Below are positions 176 to 49,668 of a stretch of DNA of 63,412 bases, piece after piece. Origin of the DNA: Alphaproteobacteria bacterium (GTDB lineage Bacteria; Pseudomonadota; Alphaproteobacteria; Rhizobiales; JAKIUO01); the NCBI GenBank assembly GCA_024280895.1, contig JAJRPI010000003.1, positions 1-63,412 on the forward strand, read 5' to 3'. The notes beneath the pieces are model-generated. The model was not told where the DNA came from. It was given only the letters and a program-made list of their open reading frames with translations, and made no database searches. A program made the translations under genes and the position numbers. Positions within the stretch are counted from its first letter, which is position 1. Every line of letters starts with the position of its first letter.

Positions 176-183
176 ATATAAAT

Positions 184-283
184 GCAGGAGGCTGGACACT
201 GACCCGTAAGGATCTCGTTAGGGCTGCTTCCTTCCGGACCTGACCCGGTTGGCGAGGAATACGTCCAACGCCAACCTCCCTGC
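184..283 (-). ncRNA. ffs: small signal recognition particle RNA (4.5S type)
   Basis: On the minus strand this stretch contains the near-invariant SRP RNA apical core (GGTCAGGTCCGGAAGGAAG, then CAGCC). The ends pair over about 12 bp: GCAGGGAGGTTGG at the 5' end against CCAGCCTCCTGC at the 3' end. The length of about 100 nt fits the bacterial small SRP RNA without an Alu domain. It binds Ffh and acts in co-translational targeting of membrane proteins. The exact ends are inferred from the closing stem. Confidence 0.95.
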
Positions 284-13814: not shown

Positions 13815-13839
13815 AACCGGGTAGTAGGAATACCCGGTT
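13815..13839. terminator. bidirectional intrinsic terminator
   Basis: AACCGGGTA and TACCCGGTT form a perfect 9-bp stem with a 7-nt loop. On the minus strand it is followed by TTTTT, so it can end transcripts of the yidD operon. On the plus strand it follows the CDF transporter gene with a weaker CTTCATT tail. Confidence 0.75.
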
Positions 13840-13973
13840 CTTCATTATATGTGTGTGTATGTGCGTGCTGGTCGTTTATTTATATCGTAGGAGAACGATG
13901 TGGTTTCTGAATATTGAAGTGCAATCTACGTGCCAGTCCCATTATGACCCCGCCAATCATTTGAAAAAAAAAT

Positions 13974-14330
13974 CTAATGATCGCCTTTGTTACAGCCCCT
14001 GCCCTGCGCCCCTTCTTCATTGAAACGCTCCTTGATATGGGTGCCCGTCCAGCGGCCATAGCGCCACGGCGCGTATATTGGCTGATGCTCCTCTCGTAGA
14101 TCCGGCACCGGGTCGAGCCCGTGTGATCCCCAGGGATTGCACCGCAATAGGCGTGACAGGGCCAGCCAGCCACCTTTCCAGGCACCATTCAGATCAATGG
14201 CGTCCGAGGCATATTCTGAGCAGGTCGGCAAATGGCGGCAGGCACCTGGTAAAAACGGAGACACGCCATAGCGATAAACAAGGATCGGCGCGCGCAACAC
14301 TGCTTTGGCGATTTTAGCTAAGATCGTCAT
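13974..14330 (-). CDS. yidD: membrane protein insertion efficiency factor YidD
   Basis: This 118-aa membrane-associated protein assists YidC-dependent insertion. The UPF0161 core is complete: YRYGVSPFLPGACRHLPTCS with conserved Cys, then EYASDAI, and LLRCNPWGSHGLDPVP. The basic C-terminal extension (about 35 residues) is longer than in many homologues. It overlaps the upstream cupin gene by 4 bp, which suggests translational coupling in the iscU-like/cupin/yidD operon. Confidence 0.93.
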   Translation of the reverse strand: MTILAKIAKAVLRAPILVYRYGVSPFLPGACRHLPTCSEYASDAIDLNGAWKGGWLALSRLLRCNPWGSHGLDPVPDLREEHQPIYAPWRYGRWTGTHIKERFNEEGAQGRGCNKGDH

Positions 14331-45259: not shown

Positions 45260-48200
45260 TTAACCGCTTTTCGCGCTGGGGATAGATTTGACGCTGACGG
45301 GGCGTTGACCAGGCAATGGATCAGCAGCTGGAGCCGCAACTGGCCGAACCGGAGCCCCTCCAGGGACAGAAGAAGGCGCAGAAGTAGATGGTGCCAATGG
45401 AGATACGGGTTTAGGCGATGATGGTGCTGGTGCTCGCGCCGGTCCAGGGTTTGGCGATCTCGCTGGCGGCGGCGCCATTTGACCACTGGGCGCTGTCGCG
45501 ATGGTCGCGTTTTCAATCGGTGCGGGCGGTGCCTTACCGGCTTTCTTTTTGGTCGGTTGCAGTACCAGCTTGCCTGATTTGACCAGGGCTTTTAGCAAAT
45601 TTTGAACCTCAATGGCACTCATGGCTTCGCCATAGTACAATCCTTGGCCATAATCACATTTGATTGAGCGTAAATAGGCGGCGTCTTCGTCGGTCTCAAT
45701 ACCCTCGGCAACCACATCCTTGTTGAGTTCGTGCACCAACGCGACAATCGACCTCAAAATAATGGCACCCGCCTCTTCATTGTTTCGGTGCTGGACAATT
45801 TCGCGATCGACCTTAATGGTGTCAAAAGGAAAGCGCAGCAAATAGCTCAAAGACGAATAGCCCGTGCCAAAATCATCCATTGAAAGACCGGCGCCCAGAG
45901 CCTTAAGCGTATGCAATATATCAATCGCCTGTTCAGGGTTTTCCATCACGATGGATTCCGTGATCTCCAGACGCAAAGCTCCTTGCGGCAGACTTTGACG
46001 CGACAGAATATGACGAATATCGACCACTAGCTCTTCACGGAATAATTGCCCACTAGAGACATTGACGCTGACAAATAGTGGTTTTTCGTTGACCGGCACG
46101 ATACGCTGCCAGCGCGCCGCTTCACGTGATGCCTGATCAAGAACAAACGCCCCAAGTTCAAGGATCGTTCCATTGCCCTCTGCAATAGGAATAAATTCAT
46201 CGGGGCTGATGGCTCCAAATTTTGGATGATCCCAGCGCAACAACGCCTCAAAGCCAACCAGTTCGCCGCGTGCCAATCGCATGATGGGCTGGTAGAATAT
46301 CTGCAATTCGCCGCGTCCGATTGCTTGGCGCAAGTCACTTTCCAGCGCCACCCGGTCATCGCGATCCGACAGCATATCAGTCCTGAATAATTCGATACGA
46401 TCTGTGCCAAGTCGCTTGGCCTGATACATGGCAATTTCCGCCTCGCGGAACAAGCTGTCGCCAGTGCACTTGGCATCCGAATAAAGGCTGCAGCCAATCG
46501 AGCTGGTAAGGATCACTTCTTCGCCAGCGATTTTTATGGGGCCGCGCAGGGCCTTGCGAATCCGGTCAGCCAACTGAGTGACCTGATTGGGTCCGCTTTC
46601 AGCAAGCAGCAATACGGCAAACTGATCCCCACCAATCCGCGCCAGCGCGTCTTGAGGCCGTAAATAACGAGCTATCCGACGAGCCACCGTCAGCAACATA
46701 GTGTCCCCAACTCCCATACCAAATCTTGCATTGATATTCTTGAAGCGATCAAGGTCAATAAACAAAACCGCTGGAGGAGCCGCGCGCTCTTGTTGCACAC
46801 GCATCACCGCAGTTGCCAAACGGTCAGCATAAATCTCTTGATTGGGAAGCCCCGTCAAACTGTCATTCACGGCATCATGAACCAGTCGTTCATGAGCCCG
46901 CTTTGTACTGGTAACATCATGGAGAAGGCCAACGCAGGTCAAGGTGCGCGCCTTGACCCAGTCATCCGTGTGCGCCTTCAAATCATACCAAAGATAAGTC
47001 CCATCGGAACGGCGCATGCGAAAATCAATACTGACCGGCCCGCCATTGCGCTCTTTGACACCAAGCAGCATCAAGGAAAAACGCTCGCGATCCGTAGGGT
47101 GTAAATAATCAAGCCAGTCGCGAAAGGATCCAGACAAGGTTCCCCAGGAAAGACCAAGCGCTTCTTCCACCTCTTTGCCAACCTCAATGGTGTCATGACG
47201 GGCATCCCAGTACCAGACGCAAGCCCCTGCCCCTTCGATGGCCTGACCATTAAAGTAAAACCGGTCAGCTGGCCCCTTGCCCGTGTGGTCCATAGCAGAA
47301 AAAGCAAATTGCGTGACCGTAAAGCCAAACAGAGCCAGCAATAATACCAGCCCGGCATTCATCGCCGTTACCACCATATCGCCAGACAGCAGACCATGAA
47401 TGGTCACGCCCATACCAAATAGCCAGACCAGAAATAACAGCCAGGTCGGCATCAGCGAGAGCGCCCGACTTTGGCCGCGCAATGCCAAATAGAGAATAAA
47501 CAGACCGCCAATCACGCCAATCGCACCAAAACTAAGCCGTGCCAGCGAACTCGCCAATGGCGCATCGACAAAGGCCAGCACAACCAGCCCCCCTTGCGCA
47601 AGGATCCAGCTGATGAAAAACAGCCTGATCCATCCATGCCAAAGACGCAAAGACAAGAAGATATACAAGAAGCCGACCAGCGAGGTAGCAAAAGCGGCCT
47701 CAGTGGCGGCGCGGTAGACAGCATTGCCATCGGTGGATAGATTAAACAGTTTTTGCAAGAAGCCAAATTCCGCGCACATATAGGCAAGCCCAACCCAGAT
47801 GACCAGCGCACCCGCCGGGAACATGGCCTTGTGATTGGCGGCAAACAGAGCCGATAAAAGGATCGCCATAATACCGGTAATGCCAAGCAAAATACCGTTG
47901 AACAAATGCCCGTTACGGCGCTTTTTCTCAAATGCTTTGACCTTCCAAAGCGACAAACGCGGATAGGTCTTGCCTGCTAGCTCGACGACAAAGGTCACGG
48001 TTGCCCCAACCTCAACACTTAATGAAAAAATGTCTGTATTGTCGGACGACACGCGCTCTGGGGCAAACCCAACGGACGGCGTCACCGCACCGATGCGGGC
48101 TTTATCCAGATCAGGATTGAAAAACTTGGAATCATTGAGGCTGTATCGTTGTGCCGTCAGCCATTGTTCGATGGTTTGGCTGGTACCATTATGTAGCGCA

Positions 48201-48532
48201 AAAACCACCCATCGCGGATTGCTGCCAGATTGGCGTGCGCTCACAGACATTCGCCCGGCGATGCCATCGCGTCCAGCTGCGGTTTCGACCTGCAACCGAT
48301 CCCCGCGTCCTTCATAAAACACACCGCGTGCTGATATGTCGATGACGTCCTTGTCACCCGTAATGGTAATCGGCTCCAGCGCCATTACCGAGCCGGGCAC
48401 AAACACGGACAAAAAAGCGGCCAGCCCAAACAACATCGCTTGCACAAAGACGCGCGATTTGAGCTTTGCGATCCCTTGCGAGAAAATACTCCCCCCCAAA
48501 GGATTGCCAATGTATGGACACCACGTCATCAA
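45260..48532 (-). CDS. 7TM-DISM membrane sensor with PAS, GGDEF-like and EAL domains
   Basis: This 1090-aa cyclic-di-GMP turnover protein has a signal segment at about residues 30-52 and a periplasmic DISM-type beta domain at about 55-200. Seven membrane segments (210-415) and a PAS domain (about 430-555) follow. Next is a GGDEF-like domain whose active loop reads GGDQF instead of GGDEF, so synthase activity is doubtful. An EAL domain with intact EALLRW, DDFGTGYSSL and VVAEGIET motifs suggests phosphodiesterase activity. The last 100 residues are proline/alanine-rich and probably disordered. It is a single gene. The stimulus is unknown. Confidence 0.92.
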   Translation of the reverse strand: MMTWCPYIGNPLGGSIFSQGIAKLKSRVFVQAMLFGLAAFLSVFVPGSVMALEPITITGDKDVIDISARGVFYEGRGDRLQVETAAGRDGIAGRMSVSARQSGSNPRWVVFALHNGTSQTIEQWLTAQRYSLNDSKFFNPDLDKARIGAVTPSVGFAPERVSSDNTDIFSLSVEVGATVTFVVELAGKTYPRLSLWKVKAFEKKRRNGHLFNGILLGITGIMAILLSALFAANHKAMFPAGALVIWVGLAYMCAEFGFLQKLFNLSTDGNAVYRAATEAAFATSLVGFLYIFLSLRLWHGWIRLFFISWILAQGGLVVLAFVDAPLASSLARLSFGAIGVIGGLFILYLALRGQSRALSLMPTWLLFLVWLFGMGVTIHGLLSGDMVVTAMNAGLVLLLALFGFTVTQFAFSAMDHTGKGPADRFYFNGQAIEGAGACVWYWDARHDTIEVGKEVEEALGLSWGTLSGSFRDWLDYLHPTDRERFSLMLLGVKERNGGPVSIDFRMRRSDGTYLWYDLKAHTDDWVKARTLTCVGLLHDVTSTKRAHERLVHDAVNDSLTGLPNQEIYADRLATAVMRVQQERAAPPAVLFIDLDRFKNINARFGMGVGDTMLLTVARRIARYLRPQDALARIGGDQFAVLLLAESGPNQVTQLADRIRKALRGPIKIAGEEVILTSSIGCSLYSDAKCTGDSLFREAEIAMYQAKRLGTDRIELFRTDMLSDRDDRVALESDLRQAIGRGELQIFYQPIMRLARGELVGFEALLRWDHPKFGAISPDEFIPIAEGNGTILELGAFVLDQASREAARWQRIVPVNEKPLFVSVNVSSGQLFREELVVDIRHILSRQSLPQGALRLEITESIVMENPEQAIDILHTLKALGAGLSMDDFGTGYSSLSYLLRFPFDTIKVDREIVQHRNNEEAGAIILRSIVALVHELNKDVVAEGIETDEDAAYLRSIKCDYGQGLYYGEAMSAIEVQNLLKALVKSGKLVLQPTKKKAGKAPPAPIENATIATAPSGQMAPPPARSPNPGPARAPAPSSPKPVSPLAPSTSAPSSVPGGAPVRPVAAPAADPLPGQRPVSVKSIPSAKSG

Positions 48533-48620
48533 ATTAACTACTTAACTTCCTGAAATTTCGAACGTTCATTGGAATCAGTAAAAAACCAGCGCGCTCATTA
48601 GCCATATTGTGTTCTTTCAA

Positions 48621-48896
48621 GTCTAATACCAAGCAACATAAATAGTGACCGGTGTCATAGGATCAAAGCGACCCATATGGCATGTGCACTGTGCGCAGCT
48701 CGATACTGGTATCTTGCAAGAACAGTGTGCTTGTCAGATGGGCCGCTTTGCCCCACCCTGCGGGCCGGAAGAGCAGGCCCGTCAGCATCGTTCCACATTG
48801 CTTATGGTACCAGTACCAAGGCACAATGCGCGCCTCCCTGACGAACCTGCTCTTCTCGGTGCCACCGGTCACTATTTATGTTGCTTGGTATAAGAC
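48621..48896. mobile_element. 276-bp inverted-repeat element (MITE-like) with two internal hairpins
   Basis: The ends are 34-bp inverted repeats with one mismatch (48621-48654 against 48863-48896; core ACCAAGCAACATAAATAG). TA flanks the ACCAAG core at both ends, as expected for a TA-targeting transposase. Inside, two long imperfect hairpins stand side by side. One pairs CAAAGCGACCCAT with ATGGGCCGCTTTG (48664-48750). The other pairs GAAGAGCAGGCCCGTCAG with a 16/18 match at 48838-48855. Each has a palindromic tip (GATAC-TG-GTATC and GGTAC-CA-GTACC). No transposase or credible ORF is present. The element fills most of the 404-bp gap between the GGDEF/EAL and GNAT genes. Confidence 0.8.
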
Positions 48897-48936
48897 GCAC
48901 TGAAATTTCGGCCAAACAGTGACAAGCGCAAGATTA

Positions 48937-49524
48937 TTAAGTGTAATAATCGTCTTCCAGCAGAGCAAATAGCAAATGATCCTGCCAGACACCGTTAATC
49001 CGCAGATATTTGCGCGCTATCCCCTCTTGTTTAAACCCGTTTTTTTGCAGTAAAGCGACCGAGGCATCATTTTGTGGAAGACAGGCGGCCTCCAGCCGAT
49101 GCAGGTGCAGTAATTTGAAGGCGAACGGCAACAAAGTCTGTACGGCTTCACTCATATGGCCTTGGCGCGCATAAGGCTGGCCGATCCAATAACCAAGTGA
49201 GGCGGAGCTAATCACCCCATATCTGATATTTGACAGGGTCAAACCGCCCAGTATCAGCTCGTTTTGGCGCGATTTGAGAAAAAAGGAATAGCCCGTGCCA
49301 TCGCGCGAGGATCGCTTGTAAAAATCAAGGCGTTTGCGAAAACTGCGCCGGGTCAGCTCGCTGGTACTCCAGCTAGGCTCAAAGGGGCGTAAAAATGGTT
49401 CACTGGCAAGGCGCAGGTCGACCCATTGGTCAAAATCACTCATTTTGGGGGCACGCAGGGTCAAAGTCTCCCCAAACAGGGCGGCTCCCGTATCATGTTT
49501 GTTCGAGCTTTTCAAAAAAGCCAT
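48937..49524 (-). CDS. GNAT family acetyltransferase (RimJ-like)
   Basis: This protein of about 195 aa has the GNAT/RimJ-RimL fold: LFGETLTLRAPKMSDFDQWV, ILGGLTLSNIRYGVISSASL, GYWIGQPYARQGHMSEAVQT (acetyl-CoA loop) and LEAACLPQNDASVALLQKNG. Relatives acetylate N-terminal residues of ribosomal proteins or other substrates, but the target here is not known. The ATG at 49524 is preferred to that at 49557. It lies 145 bp after thrC. Related genomes often have an M16 peptidase gene between these two, and none is seen here. Confidence 0.88.
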   Translation of the reverse strand: MAFLKSSNKHDTGAALFGETLTLRAPKMSDFDQWVDLRLASEPFLRPFEPSWSTSELTRRSFRKRLDFYKRSSRDGTGYSFFLKSRQNELILGGLTLSNIRYGVISSASLGYWIGQPYARQGHMSEAVQTLLPFAFKLLHLHRLEAACLPQNDASVALLQKNGFKQEGIARKYLRINGVWQDHLLFALLEDDYYT

Positions 49525-49668
49525 GAACGGCCCCTTACCTGCTTCATCGGCGATCACCCAGTTGATCCCGCAAAATTGATCCCCAAAGAGCCTGTAGAGC
49601 CACGCGAACCACTAAAACCAATAGAGCAAATCACATGCCAAATGGTTGATGACACATTAACAGCGTCT

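Follow-up and report, generated by a model that had tools for sequence, protein, structure and literature searches.

A strongly folded, gene-less mobile element with two inverted hairpin arms in an alphaproteobacterial contig, and its relatives across the phylum

The element at the window locus

The window, i.e. the whole stretch of 63,412 nucleotides that was analyzed (contig JAJRPI010000003.1, assembly GCA_024280895.1), harbours a short sequence with inverted ends between an ORF with GGDEF/EAL domains (45260-48532, minus strand) and an ORF with a GNAT domain (48937-49557, minus strand). The sole ORF of at least 80 aa over this sequence, an 82-aa frame with a GTG start (48645-48893, plus strand), gives no evidence of a gene, and simple ORF calling around copies of the element is unreliable, as open frames extend to the element edge. 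A simple scan of 48540-48960, covering this one copy and one promoter type, revealed no sigma-70-like promoter and no terminator. The bacterial small SRP RNA (RF00169) at 183-280 (minus strand, 58.8 bits) is the only Rfam family found in the window at gathering score.

In the following, G000 denotes the genome of the window and G001 to G004 its congeners; L numbers denote individual loci. The inverted arms 48621-48657 and 48860-48896 are 95 % complementary, so the near-perfect terminal inverted repeats described in an earlier note on this DNA are real. Comparison of the filled site, GTC TAA/TACC...GGTA/TAA GAC (slashes marking the edges of the element), with the empty site GTCTAAGAC in congener G001 (locus L135) showed that the mobile unit measures 264 bp (48627-48890), with TACCA...TGGTA ends and a 3-bp duplication, TAA standing at either side. 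This target is palindromic and its outer GTC and GAC lie outside the mobile unit; the outer bases of the 34-bp repeat given in the earlier note thus belong to the target. The element is present at the identical place in congener G003, as well as in a public MAG contig (L010). All four congeners were searched with the locus, and the orthologous place was found without the element in three of them (G001, G002 and G004). The element has inserted cleanly at this target in the lineage of G000 and G003, duplicating TAA. The parts of the locus are as follows.

48624-48626, no strand: left target-site duplication TAA (from the empty site in G001)
48627-48890, plus strand: mobile element of 264 bp with TACCA...TGGTA ends, arm A first (from the inverted arms, the copies, the filled and empty site and the duplications)
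48627-48657, plus strand: left terminal inverted repeat (arm 48621-48657 minus the target bases)
48660-48754, plus strand: arm A, a long imperfect hairpin with tip GATACTGGTATC (from the fold; mismatches of its homologues are G.T-biased on the plus strand)
48756-48764, plus strand: small hairpin CCC TGC GGG between the long arms (from the fold; its loop is longer in copy L002)
48765-48859, minus strand: arm B, a long imperfect hairpin with tip GGTACCAGTACC (from the fold; mismatches of its homologues are G.T-biased on the minus strand)
48860-48890, minus strand: right terminal inverted repeat (from the inverted arms and the filled and empty site)
48891-48893, no strand: right target-site duplication TAA (from the filled and empty site)

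Fold and distribution of the family

The whole element folds into a terminal stem, two adjacent long hairpins and a small one, with a minimum free energy of -147.3 kcal/mol on one strand and -156.4 kcal/mol on the other (z -12.8 for each; none of 200 shuffles was as stable). In the window copy the strand opposite to the A-first strand folds more stably. The cross-shaped fold recognized earlier, two long hairpins adjacent to each other on a terminal stem, is borne out, and the third, small hairpin at 48756-48764 is added to it. Compensatory changes were found in 49 of 99 pairs among 16 congener copies, while among 30 diverse copies 70 of 85 pairs had changed on both sides with 91.9 % of the cells paired. 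None of 500 shuffles paired as highly, although shuffling ignores relatedness, and pairing fell to 36-39 % when partners were slid by 1-3 columns, a comparison in which the structure is favoured because it was derived from the same alignment. Pairing is conserved in the family, and the stem of the terminal inverted repeats covaries as strongly as the arms. Over the element no Rfam family was found at gathering score. A looser search of five loci gave nothing over the element better than E 0.24, besides a cobalamin riboswitch match at the edge of the copy in L111; this copy (1501-1768) begins in the last 23 bases of the match (1361-1523).

Other copies, for which the earlier note proposed a search, occur at 5 distinct places in G000 according to blastn and at 6 according to a covariance model (R1) built from the 16 congener copies. 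R1 matched all 5 genomes searched from the genus; at the level of the order it matched 20 of 101. A second model (R2), built from the 30 diverse copies, gave matches in 47 of the 385 genomes searched from the class and in 35 of 299 from the phylum, 25 of the 35 lying outside the class. These searches ran within the phylum, and the model-search counts are lower bounds because strict filters were applied in the large searches. Among the full-length matches listed most measure 260-272 bp; shorter and longer forms occur. Named copies matched by R2 span the Alpha- and Gammaproteobacteria and are carried by plasmids from Azotobacter chroococcum, Pseudomonas aeruginosa, Halomonas sp. and Agrobacterium sp. 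With the terminal repeat of the Agrobacterium copy as query one short copy was found in Rhizobium sp. SSA_523 (L209); loci L208 and L210 gave no model match. Queries with the whole element found no match in phage collections and none or partial or weak matches in plasmid collections, and pattern searches of viral sequences gave no match. No published description of the family was recognized in the open-access literature searched.

Several copies deviate from the common form. In G004 a 167-bp derivative (L030, 1470-1636) retains only arm A between the terminal repeats and forms a single hairpin (-142.7 kcal/mol). Another copy (L189 / L149; G004:C231, near 13834-14101) lies between the PF01609 and PF13340 matches of an IS5-like region and is apparently nested inside that IS5-like IS. 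In two G041 copies (L125, 2750-3091; L126, 3060-3408) other palindromic sequence interrupts arm A, by eye, at a common position, and the element may therefore itself be a target. The tip of arm A carries several tandem repeats around GATGCGGCGGCATCC in a 309-bp copy (L090, 1501-1809). In Burkholderia stagnalis (L200, ~1355-1640) a longer palindromic element shows blastn similarity over 66 bases (one arm) without an R2 match, and is possibly a further branch of the family. Partial model matches were checked for longer relatives or an autonomous form (17 stretches, of which 9 were compared with the model and 4 were read) and none was autonomous; they are copies cut at contig ends or broken by other inserts.

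Ends, target duplications and candidate transposase

Flanks were counted for 67 of 73 copies, six being left out because their ends were of other kinds or altered or a flank was too short. Of 30 copies with type-1 ends (TACC), 18 are flanked by a perfect duplication of 3 bp, and 51 of the 60 sides show the outer T or A that a TNA triplet would have. Among 37 copies with type-2 ends (GAGC, GACC and like), 29 are bordered by TA at left and right, with Y mostly preceding and R following, as judged by eye. A perfect duplication is lacking in 12/30 type-1 and 8/37 type-2 copies. Target duplications in the family measure 2-4 bp, the flanks of copy L106, with CCCGCATTTCTC ends, being a perfect CTAG pair. 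A tree was made of the cores of 67 copies with the terminal 26-28 bases removed, 5 copies with other ends not being counted. Parsimony puts 7 changes of end type on this tree, and well-supported branches alone require at least 3. L097, which ends in TACC, is for instance the partner of L099 (AGTG), and the genus clade includes L036 with its GGACG ends. Since type 2 is a mixed class and bootstrap support is not quite settled, this is to be read as turnover of ends behind a stable core and not as exact counts of exchanges.

Insertion sequences with similar insertion sites were found in genomes that hold the element. An IS5-like (PF13340) IS with five copies in G047 is inserted as YTA/GG.../TAR, and one in G380 (L176) has TAA either side of GAG ends. 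A near match of ends was found for the gammaproteobacterial end type CTA/GGGTCTGTTGACG. The Azotobacter copy with these ends (L197), which begins CTAGGGTCTGTTGACGTTT, agrees at 17 of 18 bases at both ends with an 856-bp IS of Aeromonas caviae, the transposase of which is NF033580 IS5 (E 1.2e-79) with DDE_Tnp_1 and DUF4096. It also agrees at 17/18 and 16/18 end bases with an 838-bp IS of Paracoccus liaowanqingii, annotated as IS5. The ISs in L205, L206, L177, L176 and L152 gave no match to the core model R2; the ISs and the element therefore share ends, not arms.

For the window's own ends (TACCAAGCAACATAAATA) no autonomous IS was found in 30 loci obtained from 37 DDE_Tnp_1 matches in G000 and three congeners, nor did blastn in G000 at E 0.001 find a full-length transposon, which the earlier note had proposed to look for. 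IS-like loci and the partial-match stretches were rescanned for TACC and GAGC/GACC ends; the best TACC pairs had only 13 of 22 bases alike. A search of plasmids with the terminal repeat gave no autonomous partner for TACC ends, and none of 24 DUF4096 loci (15 genomes searched, 10 with a match; 10 loci re-aligned locally) had convincing ones. DDE_Tnp_1 locus L152 of congener G003 contains a pair of TAGACCC ends with 18/22 bases alike, 969 bp apart, which resembles type-2 ends.

The TA or TNA duplication rule is that of the IS427 and IS1031 groups within the IS5 family. One IS427-group element, ISPsp10, is described as duplicating TA in PMC4133298. With no partner found for the TACC ends, mobilisation of the window copy by IS5 is deduced from the target rule and the sister end type; as judged from these sequence features, the element is a MITE, and the transposase that moves it is probably of the IS5 family and not of the IS630 family. 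Membership of IS630/Tc1-mariner with a TA target, as expected in the earlier note, agrees with the TA on both sides of most type-2 relatives. It is nevertheless highly improbable: the window copy duplicates three bases (TAA), TA is duplicated by ISPsp10 of the IS5 family as well, and the autonomous ISs found with matching ends, which are of another end type than the window's, all belong to the IS5 family (DDE_Tnp_1/DUF4096 loci and plasmids having been searched).

Strand bias of the arms and its explanation

The family has a two-fold near-symmetry, with a terminal repeat followed by a hairpin arm at either side and the two arms being inverted homologues, so that each 'end' consists of a terminal repeat plus an arm. 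In 30 of 39 copies the arms score higher when compared inverted than when compared directly; z of the inverted similarity is at least 3 in 15 copies and below 3 in 24. Full-length model matches occurred on both strands at 32 of 48 loci for R1, these loci including several copies from the same genome, and at 33 of 35 for R2. This fits a resemblance of arm A on one strand to arm B on the other, although such matches are also owed in part to the terminal stem and to the palindromic nature of the sequence. By eye, two unpaired internal loops are common to both arms, around GGCAAGG..GCAACGC and GCAG..CAAG, between variable stems.

A G.T mismatch on one strand is A.C on the other, and without strand-specific selection both are equally likely. 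Over the whole element the ratio of G.T to A.C is 96:73 in 35 copies, a weak and nearly symmetric bias. As the arms were recognized as inverted homologues, mismatches were tested arm by arm, the arms being defined by position. Read on the A-first strand of 57 copies, hand-chosen from the fetched loci and omitting near-duplicates, truncated and most enlarged copies, G.T:A.C is 76:22 in arm A, 11:62 in arm B and 43:32 in the terminal repeats. With one copy per taxonomic family (39 copies) it is 40:17 in arm A (sign test p 0.0066), 9:41 in arm B (p 1.2e-4) and 27:17 in the terminal repeats (p 0.54, not significant), p values that are rough because the copies are related. The arm bias is spread over 42 vs 17 column pairs. 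The mismatch ratio of the arms together does not differ significantly from that of the terminal repeats (Fisher p 0.11); the strong signal lies in the opposite direction of the bias in the two arms. The better-paired strand of each arm runs inward, 5' to 3', from the nearer terminus, and from these mismatch counts each arm looks as if it were selected as a single strand with that polarity.

As a short element with terminal inverted repeats, without a transposase gene, with a target duplication and an exact empty site and with copies dispersed over the genome, the element is a MITE, as the earlier note had supposed from its form; one end type is also common to autonomous ISs. Bacterial MITEs such as Correia/NEMIS, RUP, ERIC and Chunjie are likewise small and gene-less, with terminal inverted repeats, a target duplication, a stable fold and multiple copies (PMC2229807; PMC10969869). 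The MITEs tabulated in these two papers, however, are confined to one or few genera or one bacterial family, whereas the core of the element recurs phylum-wide, behind different end types and with two inverted homologous arms of opposite strand bias, unlike those tabulated. IS5-family ISs follow the same insertion rule (YTA..TAR or TNA) as the element and agree with one end type of the family at 16-17 of 18 end bases, but the element is without a transposase gene and the five IS loci named above are without an R2 match. The Tn3-derived TIME elements of Pseudomonas are 262-bp MITEs with foldable transcripts; they are described with 5-6 bp duplications and Tn3-type ends (PMC4133298), whereas the element has 2-4 bp duplications and, for one end type, IS5-type ends. 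The CIR of Caulobacter (Chen and Shapiro, as cited in PMC2229807), another intergenic repeat of Alphaproteobacteria, also combines two stem-loop arms with a linker. It is described there as ~110 bp long, without terminal pairing and with a conserved GANTC; the element is ~265 bp long with long terminal repeats, and GANTC is absent in 25 of 39 copies. Identity with CIR was rejected on GANTC, on length (264 bp in the window copy) and on the terminal stem.

The explanation preferred here, and considered likely, is that of a widespread non-autonomous MITE which uses an IS5-family transposase in trans and the arms of which work as folded single strands. An IS5-family DDE transposase would cut and paste the element; for the CTA/GGGTCTGTTGACG end type there is an autonomous member of the IS5 family whose end is almost identical. 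The action of the arms as folded single strands is the least certain part. We lean towards single-stranded DNA at each end of the element, rather than RNA from transcripts entering either side; such DNA, extruded during replication or transposition, might aid mobilisation or survival of the element. Points that count against the preferred explanation are the missing partner for the TACC ends in the loci searched, the copies of both end types without a perfect duplication, the weak bias over the whole element, the lack of a significant difference between arms and terminal repeats, the copies with inverted arm similarity below z 3 and the more stable fold of the window copy's opposite strand. 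The covariation of the terminal stem, equal to that of the arms, also stands against it, as a repeat bound by transposase need not covary and snap-back correction of palindromes could produce it. Such hairpin-templated correction is central to the view of an ordinary IS5-type MITE with functionless palindromes, the core of which persists by descent. This view accommodates the strong covariation of the variable terminal stem and the nearly complete folding of the 167-bp derivative L030, and many bacterial MITEs fold stably according to PMC2229807 and PMC10969869. Correction without selection, however, gives no reason for the opposite G.T bias of the arms, and the near-constant length across the phylum is left without a reason as well; we regard it as unlikely.

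It was also suggested in the earlier note that the folding exceeds what a miniature element of this kind needs and may mean a structured RNA cargo. The arms would then fold in RNA that acts on the neighbouring mRNA or binds a host protein, the terminal repeats being mere carriers, and, given the inverse symmetry of the element, the first arm met by a transcript from either side would be one that folds correctly. The preservation of the core behind different end types, the excess of G.T over A.C in each arm on the inward-reading strand and the internal loops that look conserved, by eye, between variable stems speak for such a cargo. Against it, only one of the two arms in any transcript is in the favoured orientation, no Rfam family was found over the element at gathering score, and the scan of 48540-48960 (one copy, one promoter type) gave no sigma-70-like promoter or terminator. 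The suggestion is supported in part, by the core kept behind different ends and the opposite bias of the arms, but an RNA nature does not follow, single-stranded DNA fitting equally well; an RNA cargo is judged rather doubtful. A conserved, immobile host RNA or DNA regulatory site would agree with the strong structure and the position between ORFs, but it is ruled out by the orthologous empty sites in three congeners, and copies lie at unrelated loci. The earlier note had named a single copy kept at one place across distant relatives as the finding that would count against a mobile element; instead, the element is multicopy and is missing from the same place in three of four congeners.

MITEs are usually viewed as decayed insertion sequences with arbitrary insides. 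A covarying core of near-constant size behind different terminal repeats, together with strand-specific pairing, suggests that selection keeps the inside of this element, and a cross-like fold with arms apparently selected as single strands exceeds the needs of a passive jumping element. Under the preferred explanation, i.e. an IS5-mobilised MITE with arms working as single strands, the family offers a concrete case in which to test whether structured single strands aid a non-autonomous transposon, and the covariance model can be used to annotate such elements. It may tentatively be speculated, at less than even odds, that the core itself is a selfish, structured piece of nucleic acid that consists of one hairpin in two inverted copies, each under selection as a single strand, and that it has spread phylum-wide by borrowing the ends and transposases of several IS5-type elements. 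If true, it would be a satellite parasite of insertion sequences, with its identity residing in its structure and not in its terminal repeats.
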